A DNA stretch of 64,000 nucleotides from assembly GCF_019668485.1 (NCBI RefSeq), contig NZ_AP024619.1, forward strand, positions 1,053,001-1,117,000. The letters run 5' to 3'. Numbering within the stretch: the first letter of the stretch is position 1; every line of letters starts with the position of its first letter. This document shows positions 32,922 to 45,675 of the stretch, in pieces. Source of the stretch: Gelria sp. Kuro-4. Its GTDB lineage: Bacteria > Bacillota > DTU030 > DUMP01. The notes under the pieces are model-generated. The model searched no databases, was not told where the DNA came from, and saw only the letters and a list, made by a program, of their open reading frames with translations. Position numbers and translations under genes: made by a program.

Positions 32922-32939
32922 CGGGGCGAGGTGGTAGCC

Positions 32940-33902
32940 ATGGACCAGGACGCCCTGCTCGCGCTTTTGGCCGGGGAAAAGGGCGGGTATACGTCGGGGG
33001 AGGAAATCAGCCGGGCACTCAGGGTGTCGCGCACGGCAGTGTGGAAGTACATAAATGACCTCAGGCAGAGCGGCTATGACATCGAAGCCCACCCGCGCCT
33101 GGGCTACCGGCTGCTGGCCCGGCCGGACAAACTCCTGCCGGCGGAGGTGCGCCACGGCCTGAAAACGGCGCGCCTGGGGCAGGCGGTGCACCATTTTGAA
33201 ACCATCACCTCCACCAACGACGTCGCTAAGGATCTGGCGGAGCGGGGCGCACCGGAAGGCACGCTCGTGGTGGCCGAGGAACAAAAGAGCGGGCGCGGCC
33301 GCCGGGGCCGGGCCTGGTCTTCGCCGCCCCGGGTGGGAATCTGGGCCTCGCTCCTTCTGCGGCCCGCTTTTCTCCCCAGCCAGGCGCCGCTCCTCACCCT
33401 TACGGCTGCGGTAGCCGGGGCGGAGGCCATCCGCCGTGTGACGGGCCTTACGGCCGGCATCAAGTGGCCGAACGACCTTCTCATCGGCGGCCGCAAGGTG
33501 GCCGGTATCCTTATGGAGCTGAGCGCCGAGCAGGACGTGGTGCTGTACGTTATCCTGGGCATCGGCATCAATGTGAACACGCCTTCTTTTCCGGGGGAGC
33601 TGGCTGCCTTGGCCACCTCGCTCTACCAGGAACGCGGGGAGAGCGTGTCGCGGCGGGAACTCCTGCAGGCTTTTCTCGAACGGTTCGAATTCTGGTACGA
33701 CCGGCTGCCGGGAGAGGCCGAGGCCCTGCGCAGCCGGTGGCGCGAACTCTCCGTCACCTTGGGCCGGCGCGTCACTGTAACCGCACCCACCTTTACCGTG
33801 AGCGGCCTGGCGCGAAACATCGACCGCGAGGGCGCCCTGCTTCTCGAGACAGAAACCGGAGACCTCGTCCGCATCTTGAGCGGGGACGTAAGTCTCCGGT
33901 AG
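32940..33902 (+). CDS. birA: Biotin protein ligase and biotin operon repressor
   Basis: BirA activates biotin with ATP and attaches it to carboxylase lysines; the N-terminal helix-turn-helix lets it repress biotin genes. The HTH includes YTSGEEISRALRVSRTAVWK, followed by the ligase core with GRGRRGRAW (about residue 118), GIKWPNDLLIGGRKVAGIL and an SH3-like C-terminal domain. ATG 32940 follows GAGGTGG; the protein then has 320 residues. No bio genes are nearby. Confidence 0.92.
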   Translation: MDQDALLALLAGEKGGYTSGEEISRALRVSRTAVWKYINDLRQSGYDIEAHPRLGYRLLARPDKLLPAEVRHGLKTARLGQAVHHFETITSTNDVAKDLAERGAPEGTLVVAEEQKSGRGRRGRAWSSPPRVGIWASLLLRPAFLPSQAPLLTLTAAVAGAEAIRRVTGLTAGIKWPNDLLIGGRKVAGILMELSAEQDVVLYVILGIGINVNTPSFPGELAALATSLYQERGESVSRRELLQAFLERFEFWYDRLPGEAEALRSRWRELSVTLGRRVTVTAPTFTVSGLARNIDREGALLLETETGDLVRILSGDVSLR

Positions 33903-33917
33903 TACGGGGGAAGATCC

Positions 33918-34289
33918 ATGAACGTCAAGGTCTGGCTCCTGCTCATCGGTTCGGTGGCGCTGAGCTCGCTGGCGCAGCTGCTGCTCAAACTGGGGCTTAG
34001 AGGGGCGGGGCGGTTGGAGCTTTCGCCGGCGGGCCTTGCGGCCCTCGCGCTGCGCGTCGTGACGAACGGTTACCTTCTGGCCGGCCTGGCCGGGTTTGTG
34101 GCCAGTGCCGTTTTCTGGCTCATCGTTCTTTCCCGTGTAGAGCTCAGCCTGGCTTACCCTTTGGTCGGCCTGGGCTACGTCTTTGTTCTTTTCCTCTCGC
34201 ACTTCGTGCTGGGCGAGAGCATCTCCGCCTGGCGCCTGGGCGGGGTGGCGGCCATCATCGCCGGTGTCATCCTGATCGGTCGCTCGTAG
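33918..34289 (+). CDS. Small EamA/SMR-like membrane protein
   Basis: The 123-residue protein has four hydrophobic segments and the features of the small multidrug resistance/DMT superfamily: LSSLAQLLLKLGLR in helix 1, LSRVELSLAYPLVGLGYVFV and a final FVLGESISAWRLGGVAAIIAGVILI segment. It may act as a dimeric drug or undecaprenyl-linked sugar flippase (ArnE-like). It follows birA after 15 nt. Its TAG abuts the dctM stop on the other strand. Confidence 0.75.
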   Translation: MNVKVWLLLIGSVALSSLAQLLLKLGLRGAGRLELSPAGLAALALRVVTNGYLLAGLAGFVASAVFWLIVLSRVELSLAYPLVGLGYVFVLFLSHFVLGESISAWRLGGVAAIIAGVILIGRS

Positions 34290-35552
34290 CTAAAGGATGA
34301 GAGCCGGGATGAAGAGCGGCAGGTAAGTAAGGAGGAAGAACACTGCGATGAGGCCGAGGAGAAACGGCGCCACAGCCTGGCTGATCTTCTCCAGCGAGAG
34401 CCCGGTCACAGTGCTGGCTACATAGAGGTTGATGGCCACGGGCGGCGTGATCATGCCGATGGCCAGACCTACCACCACAAGGAGACCGAAGTGCAGGAGG
34501 TTTACCCCCAGCTGGTTCACCAGCGGCAGGAAAACCGGCGTGAGGATGATGAGGGCCGAGGCCGTCTCCATGAATACCCCGGCGATGAGGATGATCAGGT
34601 CAATAAAGAAGATGATCACGTACTTGTTCTGGGACAGCGCCAGGATGGAGCGGGCGATGAGGGTAGGGATCTGCCAGTTGGCGAGAACCCAGCTCAGAAT
34701 GCTGGAGGTGGCGATGATAAACATTACCACCGACATGGTGACGGCCGAATTGACGATGATGTGGTAGATGTCCTTCCACTTAAGATCGCGGTAGACAAAG
34801 ACGGCCACGAAAAGCGAGTAGTCCACAGCGATCACGGCGGCCTCGGAGGGTGTGAAATACCCGGAGAAGATACCGCCCAGGATGAAGGCCGGGGTGAGCA
34901 GCCCCCAAAACGCGCCTTTGAAGGTGCGCCAGATGTTGGTCAGGGAGAAGGCGGCACCGCGCGGGTAGTTGTCCCGGTAGGCCTTGACCAGGGCGAGGCC
35001 GATGAGGGAAAGGCCCATAAGAACGCCCGGAATAAAGCCGTTGAGGAAAAGGCGCGCCACCGACTGGTCGGCGATGACACAGTAAAGCACCATAGGCACA
35101 GAAGGCGGTATGACGACGCCGATGGTTCCAGCTGCAGCGATGAGGGCGGCGGAGGTGGCTTCGTCATACTCCTTTTTCTTCAGCTCCGGCACGAGCGGTG
35201 TGCCGACGGCGGCAGTGGTGGCGGCGCCCGAGCCGGAGATGGCGGCGAAGAACATGGAGGCCGCCACGGAAACCAGCCAGAGGCCGCCGCGCAGGAAACC
35301 CAGGACGGCGTCGCCGAATTCCACGAGTTTTTCAGAAACTTTGCCTTTGGCGAGGAGGTCGCCGGCCAGGATAAAGAAGGGGACGGCCACCAAAGGGAAG
35401 GAGTCGGCGCCGGCGAACATGCGCTGGGCGATAAGAACAGGGGGCAGGTGGCCTTGGCTGAGCACCAGGTAAGAGGCCAGGCCGATGCTTACGGCAATGG
35501 GCACCCCGAGAAGAAGGAGCAGGCCGAAGCTGCCGAAGAGAAGGCCGATCAC
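34290..35552 (-). CDS. dctM: TRAP transporter large permease DctM
   Basis: DctM is the ion-coupled translocating subunit of tripartite ATP-independent periplasmic transporters. The 420-residue protein is highly hydrophobic with about 12 membrane segments and family features such as ILAGDLLAKGKVSEKLVEFG, SGSGAATTAAVG and IPPSVPMVLY. The GTG start overlaps the dctQ stop by 4 nt. It is the last gene of a minus-strand ilvD-dctP-dctQ-dctM series. Confidence 0.93.
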   Translation of the reverse strand: MIGLLFGSFGLLLLLGVPIAVSIGLASYLVLSQGHLPPVLIAQRMFAGADSFPLVAVPFFILAGDLLAKGKVSEKLVEFGDAVLGFLRGGLWLVSVAASMFFAAISGSGAATTAAVGTPLVPELKKKEYDEATSAALIAAAGTIGVVIPPSVPMVLYCVIADQSVARLFLNGFIPGVLMGLSLIGLALVKAYRDNYPRGAAFSLTNIWRTFKGAFWGLLTPAFILGGIFSGYFTPSEAAVIAVDYSLFVAVFVYRDLKWKDIYHIIVNSAVTMSVVMFIIATSSILSWVLANWQIPTLIARSILALSQNKYVIIFFIDLIILIAGVFMETASALIILTPVFLPLVNQLGVNLLHFGLLVVVGLAIGMITPPVAINLYVASTVTGLSLEKISQAVAPFLLGLIAVFFLLTYLPLFIPALIL

Positions 35553-36046
35553 GCAGCTTCACCCCCTAAGGCCCGGCGGCAGCAGGCGGCCAGCTCCGTG
35601 AGGGCGTGGAGGGCCATGGTGGCGAAGCCCAGCGGCAGCGCCAGGTACACCAGGCGCATGGGCAGGCCCAGGGCCGGAGAGGTTTGGTAAATCTGCAGGG
35701 TTATGAGCTGCACGCTGGAGCGGATGGCGAGGAGAAAAAAGGAAAGGGACAAGAGCTGGACTACGGCGCCGCAGAGCTCGCGCAACTTCCCGCGCGCGAA
35801 GCCGATGAGAAAGGTCACGGCGATGTGATTGCCGCGTTTGTAAGCCAGGCTGGCCCCGCCGAAGGTGCTGAAGACGAGGAGGTAGCGTGAGAGTTCCTCC
35901 GTCCAGGGCAAGGCACTGAAAAAGATGCGGGCGGCTATCTGGAGGGTAATGGTAAGGGTGAGGGCCGCCAGGGCCAAGAAGACCAGGCGGCACATCACCC
36001 GGTCGGCCAGGTCGCTGAGACGCGCCAGGAACGATGTGGCGGGCAT
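35549..36046 (-). CDS. dctQ: TRAP transporter small permease DctQ
   Basis: DctQ is the four-helix partner of DctM. The 165-residue protein has four hydrophobic segments and the FFSALPWTEELSRYLLVFST motif typical of the family. ATG (36044-36046) is chosen because AAGGGAGTGAACCTC precedes it; the longer open frame upstream is only a shadow of dctP. A 95-nt GC-rich gap with small inverted repeats separates it from dctP, which may allow different expression of the binding protein. Confidence 0.92.
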   Translation of the reverse strand: MPATSFLARLSDLADRVMCRLVFLALAALTLTITLQIAARIFFSALPWTEELSRYLLVFSTFGGASLAYKRGNHIAVTFLIGFARGKLRELCGAVVQLLSLSFFLLAIRSSVQLITLQIYQTSPALGLPMRLVYLALPLGFATMALHALTELAACCRRALGGEAA

Positions 36047-36141
36047 GAGGTTCACTCCCTTCGGGGATAAGGCGATGGGAACCAGGGAACCGGGCGGGGC
36101 TGCGGGCGGCTGCCCTGCGGCCCTGCGCGGGCGGCGCGCTC

Positions 36142-37194
36142 TTACTTGAGCGCCTCTTGGATTTTGGTTACTAGGGCGCCGTACTTGTCTTGGTTCTTCT
36201 CGTATACGGACTGCACGGCGGCCTGGAAAGGTGCGGCGTCGGGCTCGGTGATCTGCATGCCCTTGTCTTTTAGCTCCTTGAGCTGGCCTTCCTCCTGCTC
36301 CGCGTTCCACCGGCGCTCGTAGGCAGCGGCTTCTTTGGCGGCAGCCACCAGTACCTGCTGCACATCGGCCGGGAAGGAGCTCCACACCTGCTGGCTCATC
36401 ATGATGGTGGCCGGGGCGTAGGTGTGCCGGGTGAGGGCCAGGTGCTTCTGGGTTTCGTACAGTTTGAAGGCGTAGATCACGTTAACAGGGTTCTCCTGCC
36501 CGTCGATGGTACCTTGCTGCAGCGCGGTGAGGGCCTCCGTCCAGGCCATGGGCACGGCGTTGGCGCCCAGGGCCTTGAAGGTATCGATATAAACCGGGTT
36601 TTCCATGACGCGGATCTTGAGGCCCTTTACGTCTTCCGGCCTGTTCACGGGGCGCTTGGAGTTGGTGAGGTTACGGAAGCCGCGCTCGGCGAAGGCCAGG
36701 CCCTTGAGGTTTACTTTGGAGAGGTTGTTCAGCACCTCCTGCCCCACTGAGCCGTCCAGGACCTGGTAGGCTTCCTCGCGGGACTTAAAGAGGAAGGGCA
36801 GCTCGAAAGCGGCGATCTCCGGCAGGAAGTTGGCGATGGGGCCGTCGGTGATGACGCCCATGTCCACGGTGCCCATCTGCATGCCTTCGAGAAGGGTGCG
36901 CTCGTCGCCCAGGGTGGCGTTGGGGTAGATCTCGATCTTCACTTGGCCGCCGGTTTTCTGTTCCACCAGCTCCTTGAACTTGGTCGCGGCCACATGGAAG
37001 CCGTCCTTCTCGTTCACCACGTGGGCCAGGCGCAGGGTGCGGGGCCGGTCGGCGGCCTGCCCCTGGCCGCCCTGACTTTCGGCCGGCTTCTGCCCGGCCG
37101 GTTGCTGCGGCCGGCTGCAGCCGGCGACGACGAGGACCAGGGCCAGGATCAGGGCTCCCAGGACCACGATGCGATTTCTCCACTGCTGTTTCAT
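36142..37194 (-). CDS. dctP: TRAP transporter substrate-binding lipoprotein DctP
   Basis: DctP captures the substrate outside the membrane. The 350-residue protein starts with a basic, hydrophobic signal and a lipobox VVAGC placing the lipidated Cys at residue 26. Motifs include LRLAHVVNEKDGFHVAATKF, FLFKSREEAYQVLDG, GFRNLTNSKRPVNRPEDVKG (with the usual carboxylate-binding Arg region) and GQENPVNVIY. ATG 37194 has GGAGGAA upstream. It starts 26 nt after ilvD stop, with no terminator between, so it is likely in the T-box-controlled transcript. The substrate is unknown. Confidence 0.92.
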   Translation of the reverse strand: MKQQWRNRIVVLGALILALVLVVAGCSRPQQPAGQKPAESQGGQGQAADRPRTLRLAHVVNEKDGFHVAATKFKELVEQKTGGQVKIEIYPNATLGDERTLLEGMQMGTVDMGVITDGPIANFLPEIAAFELPFLFKSREEAYQVLDGSVGQEVLNNLSKVNLKGLAFAERGFRNLTNSKRPVNRPEDVKGLKIRVMENPVYIDTFKALGANAVPMAWTEALTALQQGTIDGQENPVNVIYAFKLYETQKHLALTRHTYAPATIMMSQQVWSSFPADVQQVLVAAAKEAAAYERRWNAEQEEGQLKELKDKGMQITEPDAAPFQAAVQSVYEKNQDKYGALVTKIQEALK

Positions 37195-37220
37195 AGTGCG
37201 TTCCTCCTTCATAGTGGTAT

Positions 37221-38891
37221 CTACTCCCCGGACCTGAGGACGGCCCCCGTGCTGGCGGAGGACACCAGGAGCGCGTAGCGGTAGAGGTATCCCGACTTCA
37301 CCTTGGGCTCCGGTGCCTGCCAGGTGGCACGGCGGCGGGCCAGCTCCTCTTGACTCAGCTTGACATCCAGGCGCCGCTCCGGGATGTTGATGCTCACAAT
37401 GTCCCCCTCCGCCAGCAGCGCAATGGGCCCGCCCTCCTGCGCCTCCGGCGAAACGTGGCCGATGCTGGCGCCGCGGCTGGCACCGGAGAAACGCCCGTCG
37501 GTAATGAGCGCCACGTCCTTGTCCAGGCCGATCCCGGCGATGGCGGCGGTGGGGTTCAGCATCTCGCGCATGCCCGGCCCGCCCTTCGGCCCTTCGTAGC
37601 GGATCACCACCACGTCACCCTTCTGGATGCGCCGGCCCAAGATGGCCTCGATGGCCTCTTCCTCCGAGTTGAACACGCGCGCCGGGCCTTCGTGCACCAG
37701 CATCTCCGGGGCCACGGCGGCTTCTTTCACCACTGCGCCGTCCGGCGCCAGGTTGCCGTGCAGGATGGCGATACCGCCGGTGGTGCGGTGCGGGTTCGTG
37801 AGCGGGCGGATCACCTCGGGCCTGAGCACCTTGGCCCCGGCGATGCGCCGGCCCACGGTTTCGCCGGAGACGGTAAGGCACTCGGTGTGGATGAGGCCGA
37901 GTTCCTTCAGCTCCGCCATGATCGCCGGCAGGCCCCCGGCCTCGTGCAGGTCCTGGATGTGGTGCGGCCCGGCGGGGCTCAGGCTGGCGAGATAAGGCGT
38001 GCGCCGGCTGATGGCATCAAAGGTGGCCAGGTCCAGCTTCACTTTGGCCTCGCGCGCGATGGCCGGCAGGTGTAGCACGGTGTTGGTGGAGCCGCCCACC
38101 GCCATGTCCACGGCGATGGCGTTCTCAAAGGCTGCGCGCGTCAGGATGTCGCGCGGGCGGATGTTTTGCTGCACCAGCTCCACCACCCGCATCCCGGCGC
38201 GCTTGGCGAGGGCGGTGCGGGCGCCGGAGAAGGCGGCCGGCAGGGTGCCGTTGCCGGTAAGGCCCATGCCCAGCACCTCGGTGAGGCAGTTCATGGTGTT
38301 GGCGGTGAACATGCCGGCGCAGGAACCGCAGCCGGGGCAGGCGGCGTGTTCCATGGCGGTAAGCTCGGCGGCGGTGATACGCCCTGCCTCCAGTGCCCCG
38401 GCGGCTTCGAACATCTGCGTCACGCTGATGTCCCGGCCCTGCCAGCGTCCGGCCAGCATCGGCCCGCCCGAGACCACCACTGCCGGTAGGTTAAGCCGGG
38501 CTGCGGCCATCAGCATGGCGGGGACGATCTTGTCGCAGTTGGGGATAAGTACAAGCCCGTCGAATTTGTGCGCTTCCGCCATGGCTTCAATGGAGTCGGC
38601 GATGAGTTCGCGGCTGGGAAGCGGGTACTTCATGCCCGAGTGCCCCATGGCAATGCCGTCGCAGATGCCGATGGCGGGGAACTCGATGGGCGTGCCCCCG
38701 GCCGCGGCCACCCCCAGCTTCACCGCCTGAGCGATGGTATCCAGGTGCACATGGCCGGGGATGATCTCGTTCTGGGCGTTCACCACTCCGATGAGCGGGC
38801 GCTTAAGCTCTTCTTCCGTGTAACCTGCGGCGTAGAAGAGCGAGCGGTGGGCGGCCCGCGTCGGCCCCACCTTGACTTCATCACTGCGCAC
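37221..38891 (-). CDS. ilvD: Dihydroxy-acid dehydratase
   Basis: IlvD dehydrates 2,3-dihydroxy-isovalerate and -3-methylvalerate to the 2-keto acid precursors of valine, leucine and isoleucine. The 556-residue protein contains [25 protein letters not shown] (Cys119) and [17 protein letters not shown] (Cys185, 188, 191), with Cys119 and Cys191 candidate iron-sulfur ligands. The GTG start follows GGGAGGGAGGAG. It is preceded by a T-box and followed by dctPQM; no other ilv genes are in view. Confidence 0.96.
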
Positions 38892-38939
38892 TTGTTTCTC
38901 CTCCCTCCCGAGTAGTACAAAACCCCATTCCTTACCTTC

Positions 38940-38980
38940 AACCTATTCGCTTCTTTCCAAGAATTACCTACAAATAGGTT
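38940..38980 (-). other. Inverted repeat between T-box terminator and ilvD
   Basis: AACCTATT and AATAGGTT form an 8-bp perfect inverted repeat separated by 25 nt, just downstream of the T-box terminator in the ilvD leader. Its loop contains TAGGTAATTCTTGG. It is not part of the standard T-box and may be a binding site or mRNA hairpin. Confidence 0.45.
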
Positions 38981-38981
38981 A

Positions 38982-39012
38982 TAAAAATATCCCCTACCTT
39001 AAGGTAAGGGAC
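38982..39012 (-). terminator. T-box terminator of ilvD
   Basis: On the minus strand TCCCTTACC, loop TTAA and GGTAGGGGA form a 9-bp stem (one G-T pair) followed by TATTTTTAT. It lies directly after the T-box antiterminator sequence, as expected for transcription attenuation. Confidence 0.9.
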
Positions 39013-39251
39013 GGAGTTTCTACCGTGGTACCACCCTCGTTCGCCGCAGCGGCCTCACCGAGACGGGTAGAGTATACCCATCTCCAGGGGATAACGGCCC
39101 CGGCCGTCTGCCCTTACCGGCGCAAGCTTTCAGGGTAGCCGCTCCAGGATGATCTTTCAGGCCGGCCCAGGCACCGGGTTGCACCAAGCCCCGGCTCTCT
39201 CCAGCCGCGGCAGGCCTTACTTTTCCCTTCCTCGCGGTTGGCGTTATATTG
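39013..39251 (-). promoter_or_regulatory. T-box riboswitch upstream of ilvD, probable Ile specifier
   Basis: The minus strand has the T-box sequence AGGGTGGTACCACGG at 39037-39023, a match to the invariant antiterminator element that binds uncharged tRNA. A Stem I of about 100 nt lies upstream, with AGTA on the 5' side and GAAAGATCA on the 3' side of the presumed specifier loop. ATC (39153-39151) is the best candidate specifier, which suits isoleucine control of ilvD. The specifier assignment was made by eye and needs a covariance alignment. Confidence 0.88.
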
Positions 39252-39257
39252 CCTCCC

Positions 39258-39286
39258 ATTATAATCACTCTTGCGACCGTTGTAAA
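39258..39286 (-). promoter_or_regulatory. Promoter of the ilvD T-box transcript
   Basis: On the minus strand TTTACA (39286-39281) and TATAAT (39263-39258) are 17 bp apart, giving a start near 39251 and a leader of about 360 nt. Confidence 0.8.
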
Positions 39287-39381: not shown

Positions 39382-40272
39382 TTGCGCGTACAGATCATCG
39401 GCGTGCCGCAGGACCTGGGAGCGAACCGGCGCGGTGTGGACATGGGGCCGAGCGCCATCCGTTATGCCGGCGTGCGGGAGCGCCTGGAGAGCCTGGGCTA
39501 CACCGTGCAGGACCGGGGGAATATCCCTGTCTCCCTGCGCGACGAGCGAACAGCAGGGGATACGCGGCTGCGCTACCTGCCCGAGATCCAGCAGACGAGC
39601 GAGCTTTTGGCGCAAACGGTCCGGGAGGCGGTGGAAGCGGGGGACCTCCCGCTGGTGCTGGGCGGGGACCACAGCATTGCCATCGGCACCCTGGCCGGGG
39701 TGGCGGCGGTGAAAGAATGCGGTGTGATCTGGATCGATGCCCACGGCGATTTCAACACGCCGGAGACCACCGCCAGCGGTAACATCCACGGGATGCCCCT
39801 GGCCGCGTCCTTGGGTCGCGGTGACGAGCGGCTGGTGAGCTGCGGCGGTTTTGTGGCGAAGGCCAAGGAGAAGAACGTGGCCCTCATCGGGGCGCGGGAC
39901 CTCGATCCCGAGGAACGCGATGCCCTGCGTCGTTCCCGCATCTCGGTATTCACCATGCAGGACATCGATGAGATGGGCATGAAGCGGGTGATGCAGCAGG
40001 CTGTTGCGGCGGCGCTCGACGGCACGGAGGGAATCGCCGTGAGCCTGGACATGGATGCCCTCGACCCTTTGGAGGCGCCGGGGGTAGGGACGCCGGTGCG
40101 GGGCGGCCTGACGTACCGCGAGGCGCACCTGGCCATGGAGCTCATCGCCGAGACGGGAGCGCTCCTGTCGCTCGAGGTGGTCGAGGTGAACCCGATTCTG
40201 GACTACCGCAACCAGACGGCGGAACTGGCGGTGGAACTCATCGCCTCGGCCTTGGGCAAAAAGATCATCTGA
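39382..40272 (+). CDS. rocF: Arginase
   Basis: Arginase hydrolyses arginine to ornithine and urea using two manganese ions. The 296-residue protein has the ureohydrolase motifs GGDHS (His97), DAHGD (Asp119, His121, Asp123) and SLDMDALDP (Asp223, Asp225). GNIHGMPLAASLG and the C-terminal SLEVVEVNPILD fit arginase better than agmatinase. The TTG start lies behind AAAGGGGGAGCC. An AMMECR1/MEMO gene follows 12 nt later on the same strand; the link is unexplained. Confidence 0.88.
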   Translation: MRVQIIGVPQDLGANRRGVDMGPSAIRYAGVRERLESLGYTVQDRGNIPVSLRDERTAGDTRLRYLPEIQQTSELLAQTVREAVEAGDLPLVLGGDHSIAIGTLAGVAAVKECGVIWIDAHGDFNTPETTASGNIHGMPLAASLGRGDERLVSCGGFVAKAKEKNVALIGARDLDPEERDALRRSRISVFTMQDIDEMGMKRVMQQAVAAALDGTEGIAVSLDMDALDPLEAPGVGTPVRGGLTYREAHLAMELIAETGALLSLEVVEVNPILDYRNQTAELAVELIASALGKKII

Positions 40273-40284
40273 GGGGGCTTTGTT

Positions 40285-41688
40285 GTGGGCGTTGTCTGGG
40301 CGGGGATTGCCCCTCATCCACCCATTATCGTGCCGGAGGTAGGCGGCGCGGAGGTCGAGAAGGTGACGGCCACCTGTAGTGCCATGCGCCGGCTGGCGGC
40401 GGATCTCAAGGCGGCGGCGCCGGAGACGGTGGTGATCACCAGCCCGCACGGGCCGGTTTTTAGAGATGCGGTGGCGGTGTCGCTGCTGCCGGAGCTTACG
40501 GGCGGCCTGGCCGCTTTTGGTGCGCCTCAGGTGCAGGTTACGCGCGGCAATGACCTGGAGCTGGCCCGGACGATTATGGCGGAAGGCGGGGAGCTGAAGG
40601 TGCCCGTGGTGGGCCTGGGTAGAGAGGAGGTGCGCCGCTGGCGGGCCGGGGAGGAGCTCGACCACGGGGTGCTGGTGCCGTTTTACTACCTGGCGCACGC
40701 CGGCGTTGCGGCGCACCTGGTGTGGGTGGGGATGTCGTTTTTACCCCCGGAGGAGCTGTACGCCTTCGGTGTGGCGGTGGCGCGGGCCGCGGAGAAGTGC
40801 GGGCGGCGGGTGGCTTTCCTGGCCAGCGGCGACCTCTCGCACCGCCTCACGCGTGAGGCCCCGGCGGGGTACCACCCTGAGGCGGCGCGCTTCGACGCGC
40901 TGTTGGTACAAAAGGTGCGGGAAGGGGACCTGGAAGGCCTGCTCAAACTCGATCCGGCCCTGGCGGAGAAGGCGGGCGAGTGCGGCTGGCGCAGCTTCAT
41001 GATGATGGCCGGTGCCCTGGACGGGCGCGTGGTAAGCCCGGAGGTGCTCTCGTACGAGGGCCCCTTCGGCGTGGGCTACCTGGTGGCGAAGCTCGTTCCC
41101 GGCGCGGCGCTGCCGGAGCTCAGGCGCCTTCAGCGCCTGCGCGGCGCCCGGGAGCGGGCGGTGGAGGAGCGGCGGGCCCACGAGAGTGTCTTTGTGCGCC
41201 TGGCCCGCAAGAGCCTTGAGCATTACGTGCGCACGGGAAAACGCCTGCCGGTGCCCGCGCCGCTGCCGCCGGAGCTGGCCGGCCGGGCGGGAGCCTTCGT
41301 TTCGCTGAAGAAGCACGGGCAGCTGCGGGGCTGCATCGGCACCACCGGCCCCACGCAGCCCACGCTGGCGGAGGAGATCATCGAGAACGCCATCAGCGCC
41401 GGCACCCGCGACCCGCGCTTCTGGCCGGTGCAGGCGGAGGAACTTCCCGAAATCACCTACTCGGTGGATGTCTTGAGCGAGCCGGAGCCGGTAAAAGGGC
41501 TTCAGGATCTGGACCCGAAACGCTACGGTATCATCGTGCGGGCGCGCGGGCGGAGCGGCCTGCTCCTTCCCGACCTGGAAGGGATCGACACGGCGGAGGA
41601 GCAGGTGGCCATCGCCAAGCAGAAGGCCGGGCTGGGACCGGGCGACAAGGTGAGCCTGGAGCGGTTTGAGGTGAAGAGGTACTACTGA
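40285..41688 (+). CDS. AmmeMemoRadiSam system proteins B and A fused (MEMO-like plus AMMECR1)
   Basis: The N-terminal 275 or so residues are a MEMO/LigB-like domain: APHPP (His11), SPHGP (His55) and SGDLSH match the positions of metal ligands in class III extradiol dioxygenase folds. Residues from about 290 to 467 are an AMMECR1 domain, with SLKKHGQLRGCIGTT (Cys350), ISAGTRDPRFWPVQAEEL and DTAEEQVAIAKQKAGL. Both families and a radical SAM protein occur together across bacteria and archaea; their function is unknown. Here A and B are one 467-residue polypeptide. The GTG start (40285) follows GAGGGGGC. The stop overlaps the radical SAM start by one base. Confidence 0.88.
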   Translation: MGVVWAGIAPHPPIIVPEVGGAEVEKVTATCSAMRRLAADLKAAAPETVVITSPHGPVFRDAVAVSLLPELTGGLAAFGAPQVQVTRGNDLELARTIMAEGGELKVPVVGLGREEVRRWRAGEELDHGVLVPFYYLAHAGVAAHLVWVGMSFLPPEELYAFGVAVARAAEKCGRRVAFLASGDLSHRLTREAPAGYHPEAARFDALLVQKVREGDLEGLLKLDPALAEKAGECGWRSFMMMAGALDGRVVSPEVLSYEGPFGVGYLVAKLVPGAALPELRRLQRLRGARERAVEERRAHESVFVRLARKSLEHYVRTGKRLPVPAPLPPELAGRAGAFVSLKKHGQLRGCIGTTGPTQPTLAEEIIENAISAGTRDPRFWPVQAEELPEITYSVDVLSEPEPVKGLQDLDPKRYGIIVRARGRSGLLLPDLEGIDTAEEQVAIAKQKAGLGPGDKVSLERFEVKRYY

Positions 41689-42680
41689 TGAAAGAAGCGC
41701 TTTACTGGCACAAGCTGGAAGGGGATAGGGTTCAGTGTGAGCTGTGCCCGCAGGACTGCCGCATTGCGCCCGGGCGGGCCGGCGCCTGCCGCGTGCGCCG
41801 GAATAAAGCCGGGGTGCTCTACGCCACCAACTACGCCCGCGTCAGCTCTGTGGCCCTCGACCCGGTGGAGAAAAAGCCCCTCTATCACTTTTACCCCGGC
41901 CGCACCGTCCTCTCCCTCGGCACCATCGGCTGCAACCTTAAGTGCAGCTTTTGCCAGAACTGGGAGATCGCCCAGGAGGACGCCCCCACGCGCGGGCTCG
42001 GGCCGGAGCAGGCGGTGGCCCTGGCCCGGCGCGAAGGAGGCGGCTGCATCGGTATCGCCTACACCTACTCCGAGCCCCTCATGTGGTACGAGTACGTCCT
42101 CGATACCGCGCGCCCGGCGCGGGAGGCGGGCCTCAAGAATGTGCTGGTGACGAACGGCTTTATCCAGCCCGAGCCCCTGGAAGCGCTTTTGCCCTTTATT
42201 GATGCTTTGAACATCGACGTCAAGGCTTTTACCGGCGACTACTACCGCCGGGTGTGTCACGGCGGCCTGGAGCCGGTGCTCAAAACCGTGGAGACGGCGG
42301 TGCGTGCCGGCTGCCACGTGGAGCTTACCACCCTCCTCGTGCCCGGCCTTAACGACGCGCCCGACGAGATCCGTGCCCTGGTAAGCTGGATAGCGGGACT
42401 TGCGCCCACCATCCCACTTCACCTTACGCGCTACTACCCGCAGTACAAAATGGAGCTTCCCCCCACTCCCCTGGCCACGCTGGAACGCGCCTGGGAAATC
42501 GCCCGGGAGAAGCTCGCCTACGTCTACATCGGCAATGCCCTTACCGAAAAGGGGCAGAACACGTACTGCCCCGGCTGCGGGGCGCTGCTCATCGAACGCC
42601 GCGGCTTCAGCGCCCGGCCGACCGGCCTTGAGCACCGCCGCTGCCGCGCCTGCGGCCGGGTGACGGAAGTCACCTGCTGA
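41688..42680 (+). CDS. AmmeMemoRadiSam system radical SAM enzyme
   Basis: The 330-residue protein has the radical SAM cluster motif CNLKCSFCQ with Cys82, Cys86 and Cys89, and resembles pyruvate-formate-lyase activating enzymes. Extra cysteines stand before it (Cys17, 20, 24, 34), and the C-terminus has a zinc-ribbon-like pair CPGCG and CRACG. It is translationally coupled to the MEMO-AMMECR1 fusion. Substrate and product are unknown; coupling implies a shared reaction or protein modification. The 121-nt convergent gap after it (42681-42801) holds no gene. Confidence 0.9.
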   Translation: MKEALYWHKLEGDRVQCELCPQDCRIAPGRAGACRVRRNKAGVLYATNYARVSSVALDPVEKKPLYHFYPGRTVLSLGTIGCNLKCSFCQNWEIAQEDAPTRGLGPEQAVALARREGGGCIGIAYTYSEPLMWYEYVLDTARPAREAGLKNVLVTNGFIQPEPLEALLPFIDALNIDVKAFTGDYYRRVCHGGLEPVLKTVETAVRAGCHVELTTLLVPGLNDAPDEIRALVSWIAGLAPTIPLHLTRYYPQYKMELPPTPLATLERAWEIAREKLAYVYIGNALTEKGQNTYCPGCGALLIERRGFSARPTGLEHRRCRACGRVTEVTC

Positions 42681-43524: not shown

Positions 43525-45675
43525 TTAGGCCCAACTGAGTTCCACCTTGTCCCCGTCCTTGAGCGGCGTGGTGAAGTCGGCCGGCTCGCCGTTTACGGTC
43601 ATGACGAGGCGGGCACCGGGCTGGGCGTTCTTTTTCACGTCCACCAGGGCGAAGAGGTCGCTCAAGATGGCTGTGCTGCGGCCGGGTACCAGGCTGATGG
43701 CCGCCCCGCGCGGCAAGGGGTCTTGGAGCCGTGCCGGGCGGCCGTTCACCAGGATGGTGGTGCCGCTCCCGGGCAGGTTCACCCGCTGGCCGTTGACGCT
43801 TACCGTAACAGGCGGCACCGGCGCGATGCGCCCCGCCAGGGCCATGCCCACGCTGGGAGCTGCCTCCGCCAGGGTGTAATCCAGAGCGTCACCCGGGCGC
43901 ACCAGGTCTTTCAACCCGGCTGCCCGCCCGTTGATGCTCAGGCGGCACGGGGAAAAGGGTAAAGTACAGCGCCGGCCGCCGAGCAGGAAGGGGAAATCCT
44001 CTTCTACCAGCTGTTCGGCCGGCACCCCTGCCAAAAGGAGGAGTTCACGGGCCGGCCGCTGCCATAGTATGCCCACCCGGGCGCGGTCGGGAACCGGTGT
44101 CGCCGGATCGGCCGGGAGCCCGTTTACCGTTAGGCGCGGCGGAAAAGGCGTGTCCGTCCCGTTGAGCCGGTAAAAGCGCGCGGCTCCGGCCAGGTCCCCG
44201 GCCGTGGCCTGTGCATTCCGGCCGTCGGCACCCGGCGCGAATTCCACCCGGGCACCTTCCGTAAGCGGCGTATCCAGGTCGGCCGGCTCCCCATCGACAC
44301 GAATGGTGGCCGGCTCGCCCTGCCCACCCGGAATCACGGTGAGCTCCCCATTAACCTCCACCGTGAGGGCGAGGCCCGGGCGCCCGAAGAGGCGGTTCCA
44401 GGTGGTGCCGGCCGCCAGCAGTGCCTGGGCCACCGTTTGGCCGGCCAGGTTCCAGAGGTAGACCGGCTGGCCGTTTACGCTGGCCTTAAGGAAGTGGAGC
44501 GGGCTGCCCTTCAGGGCGGTGACGGCGATGCCGATGGGTGTCACCGCCTGCGGCCCACTGAGCTTCTTTGCCTGCCCGCTCACGGCGGCAATGGTCTCGC
44601 GGCCCCGGAGGCCCACCCGGTTTTCCGGCAGCTCCAGCGCTCGGGCCAGGGCCGCGGGCAGGGTAGGGGTAAGGCTGCCGCCGCCCACCAGGAGGACGGC
44701 GTCAGGCGCGCGGCCGTTAAGGGAGAGGATTTCTGCAGCTATCTGGCCGGCCAGGTTGTCGATGGCCGGGGCCAGCTCGCGCACCACGGTGCCCGCCGCC
44801 GGCTCCTGTTTCTGGCCGAGGATATCGGTAAAGGTAACCGTGTCGGCGGTGCTGAGCTGCCGTTTTACTGCTTCCCCGGCGGTGAAATCGAGAAGAAAAC
44901 GCTGGCAGAGGGCATCGGTGATTTCGTCCCCGGCCACCGGCACCATGGCGTAGGCGTAGATGTTGCCGCGCCGCACCAGGGCGATGTCCGAGGTGCCGGC
45001 GCCAATGTCGACCAGGGCCAGGTTGAGCTGGCGCATGCCGGGGGGGATGCTCACCTCGGCGGCGGCGATCGGCTCCAGGGTGAGGCTGGCTGCCTCCAGA
45101 CCGGCCCGGCGCAGGACGGCGAACAGGCTGTCGACCACCACCCGGGGGAGGAAGGTGGCGATGAGGCTGAGGCCGATCTCACGACCGAACTGCCCCGTGA
45201 GCTCGCTGATGGGGGCGCCTTCTAGTATGTACTGGGTGACGCTGTAACCCACGCAGAAATAACCGGCGGCAGCCGCCTGCCCTTCGTTGCGGGCCAGGGA
45301 CTCCTGCGCTGCCCGGAGCGCCTCCAGCTCCAGGGCGCGCACATCGGCCGGCGTCACCTCCTGGGAGGCGCTCTTTTCCCGCTGTGCCTCCCCGCGCGCT
45401 GTCTTGAGGGCCCGGCCGGCGGCGGCCACGGCGGCCCGGGTAAGCGGGTGCTTAAGGCGCCGTTCCAGGGCCGTTTTCACCTTGCGCACTCCCTCTGCCA
45501 CTGCGGCTACGTCGTGTACCTGGCCGTCGTACATGGCGCGGCTGGTGTGCTCGAACACTTCCGCCGCGCGGATGTGAAGCCCCTTCGGGGTTTGTGCGAG
45601 AATAAGTCCCACAATGGTGCGGGTGCCGATGTCCAGGGCAAAGACTTCCTTATCAGCCGGCGTTTGTGCGGGCAT
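43525..45675 (-). CDS. FtsA/PilM-like actin-fold ATPase with repetitive C-terminus
   Basis: Residues 10-390 form an actin-like ATPase: ALDIGTRTIVG (phosphate 1), LVDIGAGTSDIALV near 221-234 (phosphate 2) and VLLVGGGSLTP near 327-336 (adenosine). It resembles FtsA, which anchors FtsZ, or PilM. After residue 395 come eight copies of a short beta-rich motif of the type VNGxP followed by TPL..G..V, at residues 400, 440, 460, 517, 580, 627, 643 and 694. FtsA proteins are normally near 400 residues, so this 716-residue form is an extended paralogue. It stands apart from any division cluster. The ATG follows GAGGTGGTCGAGG. Confidence 0.8.
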   Translation of the reverse strand: MPAQTPADKEVFALDIGTRTIVGLILAQTPKGLHIRAAEVFEHTSRAMYDGQVHDVAAVAEGVRKVKTALERRLKHPLTRAAVAAAGRALKTARGEAQREKSASQEVTPADVRALELEALRAAQESLARNEGQAAAAGYFCVGYSVTQYILEGAPISELTGQFGREIGLSLIATFLPRVVVDSLFAVLRRAGLEAASLTLEPIAAAEVSIPPGMRQLNLALVDIGAGTSDIALVRRGNIYAYAMVPVAGDEITDALCQRFLLDFTAGEAVKRQLSTADTVTFTDILGQKQEPAAGTVVRELAPAIDNLAGQIAAEILSLNGRAPDAVLLVGGGSLTPTLPAALARALELPENRVGLRGRETIAAVSGQAKKLSGPQAVTPIGIAVTALKGSPLHFLKASVNGQPVYLWNLAGQTVAQALLAAGTTWNRLFGRPGLALTVEVNGELTVIPGGQGEPATIRVDGEPADLDTPLTEGARVEFAPGADGRNAQATAGDLAGAARFYRLNGTDTPFPPRLTVNGLPADPATPVPDRARVGILWQRPARELLLLAGVPAEQLVEEDFPFLLGGRRCTLPFSPCRLSINGRAAGLKDLVRPGDALDYTLAEAAPSVGMALAGRIAPVPPVTVSVNGQRVNLPGSGTTILVNGRPARLQDPLPRGAAISLVPGRSTAILSDLFALVDVKKNAQPGARLVMTVNGEPADFTTPLKDGDKVELSWA

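Follow-up and report, generated by a model that had tools for sequence, protein, structure and literature searches.

A two-gene LigB-type AmmeMemoRadiSam unit with fused B and A proteins in Gelria sp. Kuro-4

Gene unit, fused form and chromosomal neighbourhood

The window, i.e., the entire analysed stretch of 64,000 nucleotides (G000:C1:1053001-1117000), is part of the complete 2.88-Mb genome of Gelria sp. Kuro-4. It harbours a gene for a fusion protein (a LigB-type B half followed by an AMMECR1 domain as A half), directly preceded by an arginase gene and followed by a gene for a radical-SAM enzyme:

39382..40272, plus strand: arginase gene (TIGR01229, 319.5 bits), ending 12 nt before the GTG of the fusion gene
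40285..41688, plus strand: fused protein B-A, 467 aa; open reading frame with GTG start and TGA stop at 41686-41688
41688..42680, plus strand: radical-SAM enzyme, 330 aa (TIGR04337, 335.5 bits); ATG at 41688-41690

Fusion gene and radical-SAM gene share exactly one base (TGATG), and the GTG start of the former is consistent with the N-terminus of its relatives. The two-gene unit described in the original prediction is thus real and intact, and the arginase gene 12 nt upstream of it was likewise confirmed.

Occurrence of the fused form was surveyed in 299 genomes of the window's phylum, the loci being in part hand-picked; the Chloroflexota were the sole other phylum sampled broadly. AMMECR1 is found in 228 of the 299 genomes. 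The frames around 150 listed AMMECR1 places reach 440 aa or more in 137 cases; four measure 300-390 aa, some or all of these being located at contig ends, and nine are shorter than 300 aa, one of the latter (genome G100) being a damaged fused gene. Ten of the fetched loci are truly split, with a LigB-type protein of 273-293 aa encoded directly before an AMMECR1 protein of 172-183 aa; support in a tree of AMMECR1 only is too weak to place these split forms as ancestral in the phylum. When genomes, one per species, were searched with the alignment of fused proteins, at least 572 matching stretches were confirmed; 80 of these include Bacillota, Coriobacteriia and Chloroflexota and mostly cover the whole fusion. 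Considering the long frames and the mostly full-span matches, the fused form is the rule in the phylum, and what had been regarded as something special turned out to be the normal form here.

The same continuous frames bear on the possibility of a frameshift or assembly artefact, the probability of which is practically nil: nothing in its favour was found for the window, an 81%-identical relative is collinear with the fusion protein across all 467 residues, and the many independent full-length copies rule out a frameshift. A damaged copy exists elsewhere, i.e., at locus L126 of genome G100, where a deletion or frame shift has broken the fused gene within its LigB half and the adjoining radical-SAM gene is intact.

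A promoter-like site precedes the arginase gene at 39238-39265, and together with the 12-nt gap this arrangement indicates that arginase and fusion gene are probably on one transcript in the window, as originally suggested. Membership of the arginase in the unit did not hold, since only 12 of 117 loci have its gene directly before the unit, seven of them from the window's own class; on account of this distribution the arginase was rejected as a system component. That it should be a functional component, the unit acting on arginine, ornithine or a guanidino compound, is accordingly very improbable, despite the short gap, the probable shared transcript and its adjacency in the majority of the sampled members of the same family (the relatives L084 and L090, also sampled, have no arginase there). 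The arginase neighbour is best read as incidental, reflecting old synteny and a shared transcript. Presumably, arginase is also encoded near cdaA in some Bacilli devoid of AMMECR1.

In many lineages, the unit is located after rplM, rpsI and cwlD and before cdaA-glmM or arg genes. Of the 94 loci with at least 5 kb of upstream sequence, 43 have at least one of rplM, rpsI and cwlD upstream on the same strand; cdaA or glmM is found downstream at 19 of 92 loci. The position after rplM-rpsI could be explained by a system modifying RNA or ribosomes, and archaeal AMMECR1 has been linked to genes for PIN and Zn-ribbon proteins (PMC6393860). However, the neighbourhood represents general housekeeping synteny, which also comprises cwlD, birA, cdaA and glmM, and the unit is located elsewhere in the pantothenate-kinase loci L092, L095, L127 and L128, rendering such a role rather unlikely. 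In L127 and L128, an alternative chromosomal home, a type III pantothenate kinase is encoded upstream, and some 4 kb separate the fusion gene from the radical-SAM gene downstream of it.

Further features of the surroundings concern the window itself and its closest relatives. Minus-strand genes for a TRAP-type transporter as well as ilvD occupy 34000-39000 of the window, between birA (32931-33899) and the arginase gene; in the family relatives L086-L088, birA, arginase, fusion and radical-SAM genes are contiguous. The window also encodes, on the minus strand at 43525-45675, a protein of 716 aa whose FtsA/PilM/EutJ-like actin-fold domain is accompanied by a long C-terminal portion beyond the matched regions.

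Domains and putative metal site of the fusion protein

The following features were assigned within the fusion gene:

40309..41085, plus strand: B half, LigB-type (class III extradiol dioxygenase fold), aa 9-267 (PF02900, 145 bits; cut-off 26.3)
40978..40983, plus strand: codons of E232 and C233, a dioxygenase-type Glu beside a MEMO-type Cys (alignments; MEMO1 C244, PMC11081632)
41194..41679, plus strand: A half, AMMECR1 domain, aa 304-465 (model matches at aa 302-465: PF01871, 163 bits; TIGR04335, 140.2 bits, cut-off 99)
41323-41340, plus strand: LRGCIG motif of the A half, with Cys350 invariant in 70 of 70 fused relatives

While the A half clearly passes TIGR04335, the model for AmmeMemoRadiSam protein A, the B half reaches the system-B model TIGR04336 with 28.4 bits (cut-off 26; partial match, aa 129-257), i.e., with an excess of 2.4 bits, as compared to about 265-329 bits for true MEMO-type B proteins. 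This narrow pass is due to its LigB type. No match to the Pfam Memo family (PF01875) was obtained for the fusion protein or elsewhere in the window's genome. In the AlphaFold2 model of the fusion (pLDDT 94.9, pTM 0.88), the closest solved folds according to Foldseek are TK2203, aminophenol and dihydroxyphenylacetate dioxygenases, as well as PH0010 for the A half; LigAB is also matched, and MEMO1 ranks 38th to 42nd (TM 0.55 of target). Judged by profile scores and the predicted structure, the B half is of LigB type and not a MEMO domain in the strict sense, MEMO1 being more distant by both sequence and fold. The proposed complete AMMECR1-MEMO-radical-SAM system with fused A and B therefore holds with respect to completeness and fusion (TIGR04335, TIGR04336 and TIGR04337 are all passed), but not with respect to MEMO as designation of the first half.

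The PF01875 proteins of the phylum were considered as system B and discarded, the strong matches being signal-peptide-bearing, lipoprotein-like paralogues away from the system. Those of L062-L081 possess signal peptides and lipobox-like starts, are encoded outside the AMMECR1 system, several of them beside a gene of about 4.9 kb, and apparently carry Asp (LDS) at the MEMO1 Cys position, as judged from one aligned row.

Candidate metal ligands of the B half are H11, H55, E232 and C233, with H186 as acid-base candidate. H11, H55, D183, H186 and C233 are conserved in 70 of 70 fused relatives and E232 in 68. The iron ligands of 2-aminophenol dioxygenase are H13, H62 and E251 (PMC11081632); in the profile alignment, H13 and E251 of this enzyme (3VSH) correspond to H11 and E232, and H55 corresponds to the SPH histidine. 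The residues of the two-His-one-Glu iron site of the LigB superfamily are thus present. E258, an early guess for the acidic ligand from the conserved SYEGPFG motif, was dropped because it is E232 that aligns with E251.

In MEMO1, iron is held by H49, H81 and C244 (eLife 2024, PMC11081632). MEMO-type B proteins possess the Cys without the Glu (MCG or ACG) in 30 of 30 cases. The Cys appears to be common to both B types and MEMO1 and is present in none of the solved dioxygenase relatives inspected, its position being occupied by Gly, Val or Met in the aligned canonical dioxygenases and by Asp in TK2203. C233 can tentatively be placed at the position of MEMO1 C244 based on motif register (ECG vs MCG/ACG) and on identical spacing to residues of the helix that comes next, rather than on superposed structures. 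E232, C233 or both could serve as metal ligands.

Radical-SAM partner, linkage and probable exchange of the B protein

Three cysteine motifs characterise the radical-SAM enzyme:

41736..41789, plus strand: N-terminal four-Cys motif C17-C20-C24-C34, present in 61 of 61 sequences
41931..41954, plus strand: CX3CX2C radical-SAM cluster motif C82-C86-C89, present in 61 of 61 sequences
42567..42653, plus strand: C-terminal four-Cys ribbon C294-C322, complete in 34 and absent in 25 of 61 sequences

The seven cysteines of the CX3CX2C and N-terminal motifs are invariant, while the C-terminal ribbon, missing in 25 sequences, is dispensable in the family. The protein passes TIGR04337 well above the cut-off of 220 bits. 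Pyruvate formate-lyase activating enzymes are the best fold match of its AlphaFold2 model (pLDDT 96.7) and its second-best family matches, and one might envisage a glycyl-radical activase with the fusion protein as radical-bearing target or as delivery factor for one. This is improbable, as the fold is common to many unrelated radical-SAM enzymes, the fusion protein has no glycyl-radical family match in Pfam or NCBIfam, and the recurrent neighbour families of the loci include no recognisable gene for a dedicated, conserved glycyl-radical enzyme.

In the phylum, the radical-SAM model is matched above cut-off in 219 of 299 genomes. Counted by hand from two tables of these genomes, the enzyme is present in 218 of 228 AMMECR1-positive vs 1 of 71 AMMECR1-negative genomes (phi 0.91). 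Of the 121 AMMECR1 places with a listed radical-SAM hit in the genome, 111 are followed by the gene for this enzyme on the same strand at a distance of at most 400 bp. In Selenomonad, Coriobacteriia and some Chloroflexota loci the gene is located elsewhere, so tight linkage is not universal; among 15 genomes picked mostly because the radical-SAM gene is either absent next door or located upstream, 14 have a match above cut-off. The model scan of the 299 genomes gave no clear radical-SAM match in four AMMECR1-bearing genomes (G023, G177, G199, G246), and the stretch read at four Chloroflexota LigB fusions (L296, L297, L299, L300) contains no radical-SAM gene. Thus, A-B may work alone in some genomes.

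AMMECR1 is encoded in 49 of 151 Chloroflexota genomes, about one third of these having it in frames of at least 435 aa. At the Chloroflexota loci L284-L302, the slot between radical-SAM and AMMECR1 genes holds either a LigB-type or a MEMO-type B, fused or split, and the gene order is radical-SAM, B, A for either type. True MEMO domains are fused to AMMECR1 in L237, L241, L243 and L251 (259-267 bits with the Pfam model; about 320 bits with TIGR04336), and LigB domains in L242 and L179, with 147-155 bits for Chloroflexota LigB fusions; both B types also occur as separate genes in this phylum. In a concatenated tree of AMMECR1 and radical-SAM proteins, all 14 Chloroflexota rows form one clade (bootstrap 100, SH-aLRT 99) in which the B types are mixed, one LigB-fused and one MEMO-split row being starred sisters (99/93). 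At least two changes of B type are forced by the starred branches alone, and the best tree requires four, the bootstrap being not fully settled. A second, diverged AMMECR1 subfamily is also found in Chloroflexota (L238-L240, L244-L246, L248-L250), mostly lacking a radical-SAM gene within the 3.5-kb loci.

Hence, with A and the radical-SAM enzyme kept throughout, either B itself was replaced, or two B genes were present and repeated losses removed one of them. Both B types became fused to A, or one fused gene received a replacement B half. Either history implies that B and A act together, and the occurrence of a different B domain in the same slot in other lineages marks the three parts as one functional unit. 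The joint action of A and B originally deduced from the fusion is therefore upheld by co-occurrence, close downstream linkage and fusion of both B types to A; the single fusion in the window, taken at the time as strong evidence, provides less support than the exchange in the B slot.

Proposed function and relation to known systems

The literature searched contained no experimental paper on the prokaryotic system, in agreement with the earlier view of a system of unassigned cellular role. Named relatives from the fused-alignment search include strict anaerobes. Burroughs and colleagues reportedly united the dioxygenase and Memo families in 2019 and are said to have suggested a modification of nucleotide bases or isoprenoids.

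PF01871 is present in 50.66% of anaerobes vs 3.38% of aerobes (mSystems 2026, PMC13386939). Because the system is an anaerobe marker, the B half most likely performs metal-assisted, oxygen-independent chemistry rather than O2-dependent ring opening. A working extradiol dioxygenase opening an aromatic ring, in which AMMECR1 is an accessory domain and the substrate is provided or repaired by the radical-SAM enzyme, would agree with the nearest folds (TK2203, aminophenol and dihydroxyphenylacetate dioxygenases) and with a His-His-Glu triad plus catalytic His alignable to known dioxygenases. It is nevertheless quite improbable in view of the anaerobe bias and of MEMO1, which showed no dioxygenase activity with the catechol-type substrates tried (PMC11081632). 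Moreover, the B half contains the additional invariant Cys, and MEMO-type domains without the Glu fill the same slot. The strict anaerobes among the relatives also argue against O2-dependent cleavage.

The locus is thus considered, with somewhat more than even confidence, to encode a standard two-gene LigB-type AmmeMemoRadiSam (Memo-Ammecr1) system, in which B, A and the radical-SAM enzyme form one functional unit with metal-assisted, oxygen-independent chemistry, and the arginase is carried along. B would bind Fe(II) through H11, H55 and E232 and/or C233; A, with the invariant cysteine of its LRGCIG motif, would form or close the substrate site; and the PFL-activase-like radical-SAM enzyme would abstract hydrogen from the same substrate or prime it. 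Possible substrates range from protein residues and RNA bases to small metabolites. More tentatively, one may speculate that MEMO-type and LigB-type domains can stand in for each other as catalytic partners of AMMECR1 and the radical-SAM enzyme, with an invariant metal-site Cys in common, that the MEMO1 Cys marks a distinct oxygen-independent His-His-Cys(-Glu) chemistry instead of a decayed dioxygenase site, and that the human MEMO1-AMMECR1 pair descended from such a unit.

MEMO1 and AMMECR1 are conserved, disease-linked human proteins without agreed biochemical function, and the one-chain bacterial version beside its radical-SAM partner lends itself well to structural work and assays. From the exchange in the B slot, the residues of first interest are the putative metal-site Cys common to the two B types and, in AMMECR1, the cysteine of the LRGCIG motif.

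Compared to LigB/class III extradiol dioxygenases (PF02900; 2-aminophenol 1,6-dioxygenase beta, TK2203, 3,4-dihydroxyphenylacetate 2,3-dioxygenase), the window protein shares the fold, the His-His-Glu triad and the catalytic His, but adds an invariant Cys after the Glu, a C-terminal AMMECR1 domain, a radical-SAM partner and an anaerobe-linked distribution. Human MEMO1 (PF01875) has the same superfamily fold with two His and a Cys at its site (H49, H81, C244), whereas the window B half lacks a Pfam Memo match, has a weaker fold match, keeps the Glu absent in MEMO1 and is fused to AMMECR1. Human AMMECR1 as well as archaeal PH0010 and MM0484 (PF01871) have the AMMECR1 fold and the LRGCIG motif, in which a G-to-D change leads to human disease (PMC5502304); in the window, this domain is fused to a putative metal-site domain. 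Pyruvate formate-lyase activating enzyme shares fold and CX3CX2C motif with the window radical-SAM protein, which in contrast possesses the extra N-terminal four-Cys motif and the C-terminal ribbon and has no known glycyl-radical partner. The closest correspondence is to AmmeMemoRadiSam (TIGR04335/TIGR04336/TIGR04337), also named Memo-Ammecr1 systems (Burroughs et al. 2019, as cited in eLife 2020, PMC7159879): the window contains all three parts in overlapping genes, with A and radical-SAM proteins well above cut-off, and differs in having B and A in one chain and a LigB-type B just above cut-off. Since both of these traits are common in the phylum, the window unit is a normal member of an already known system.
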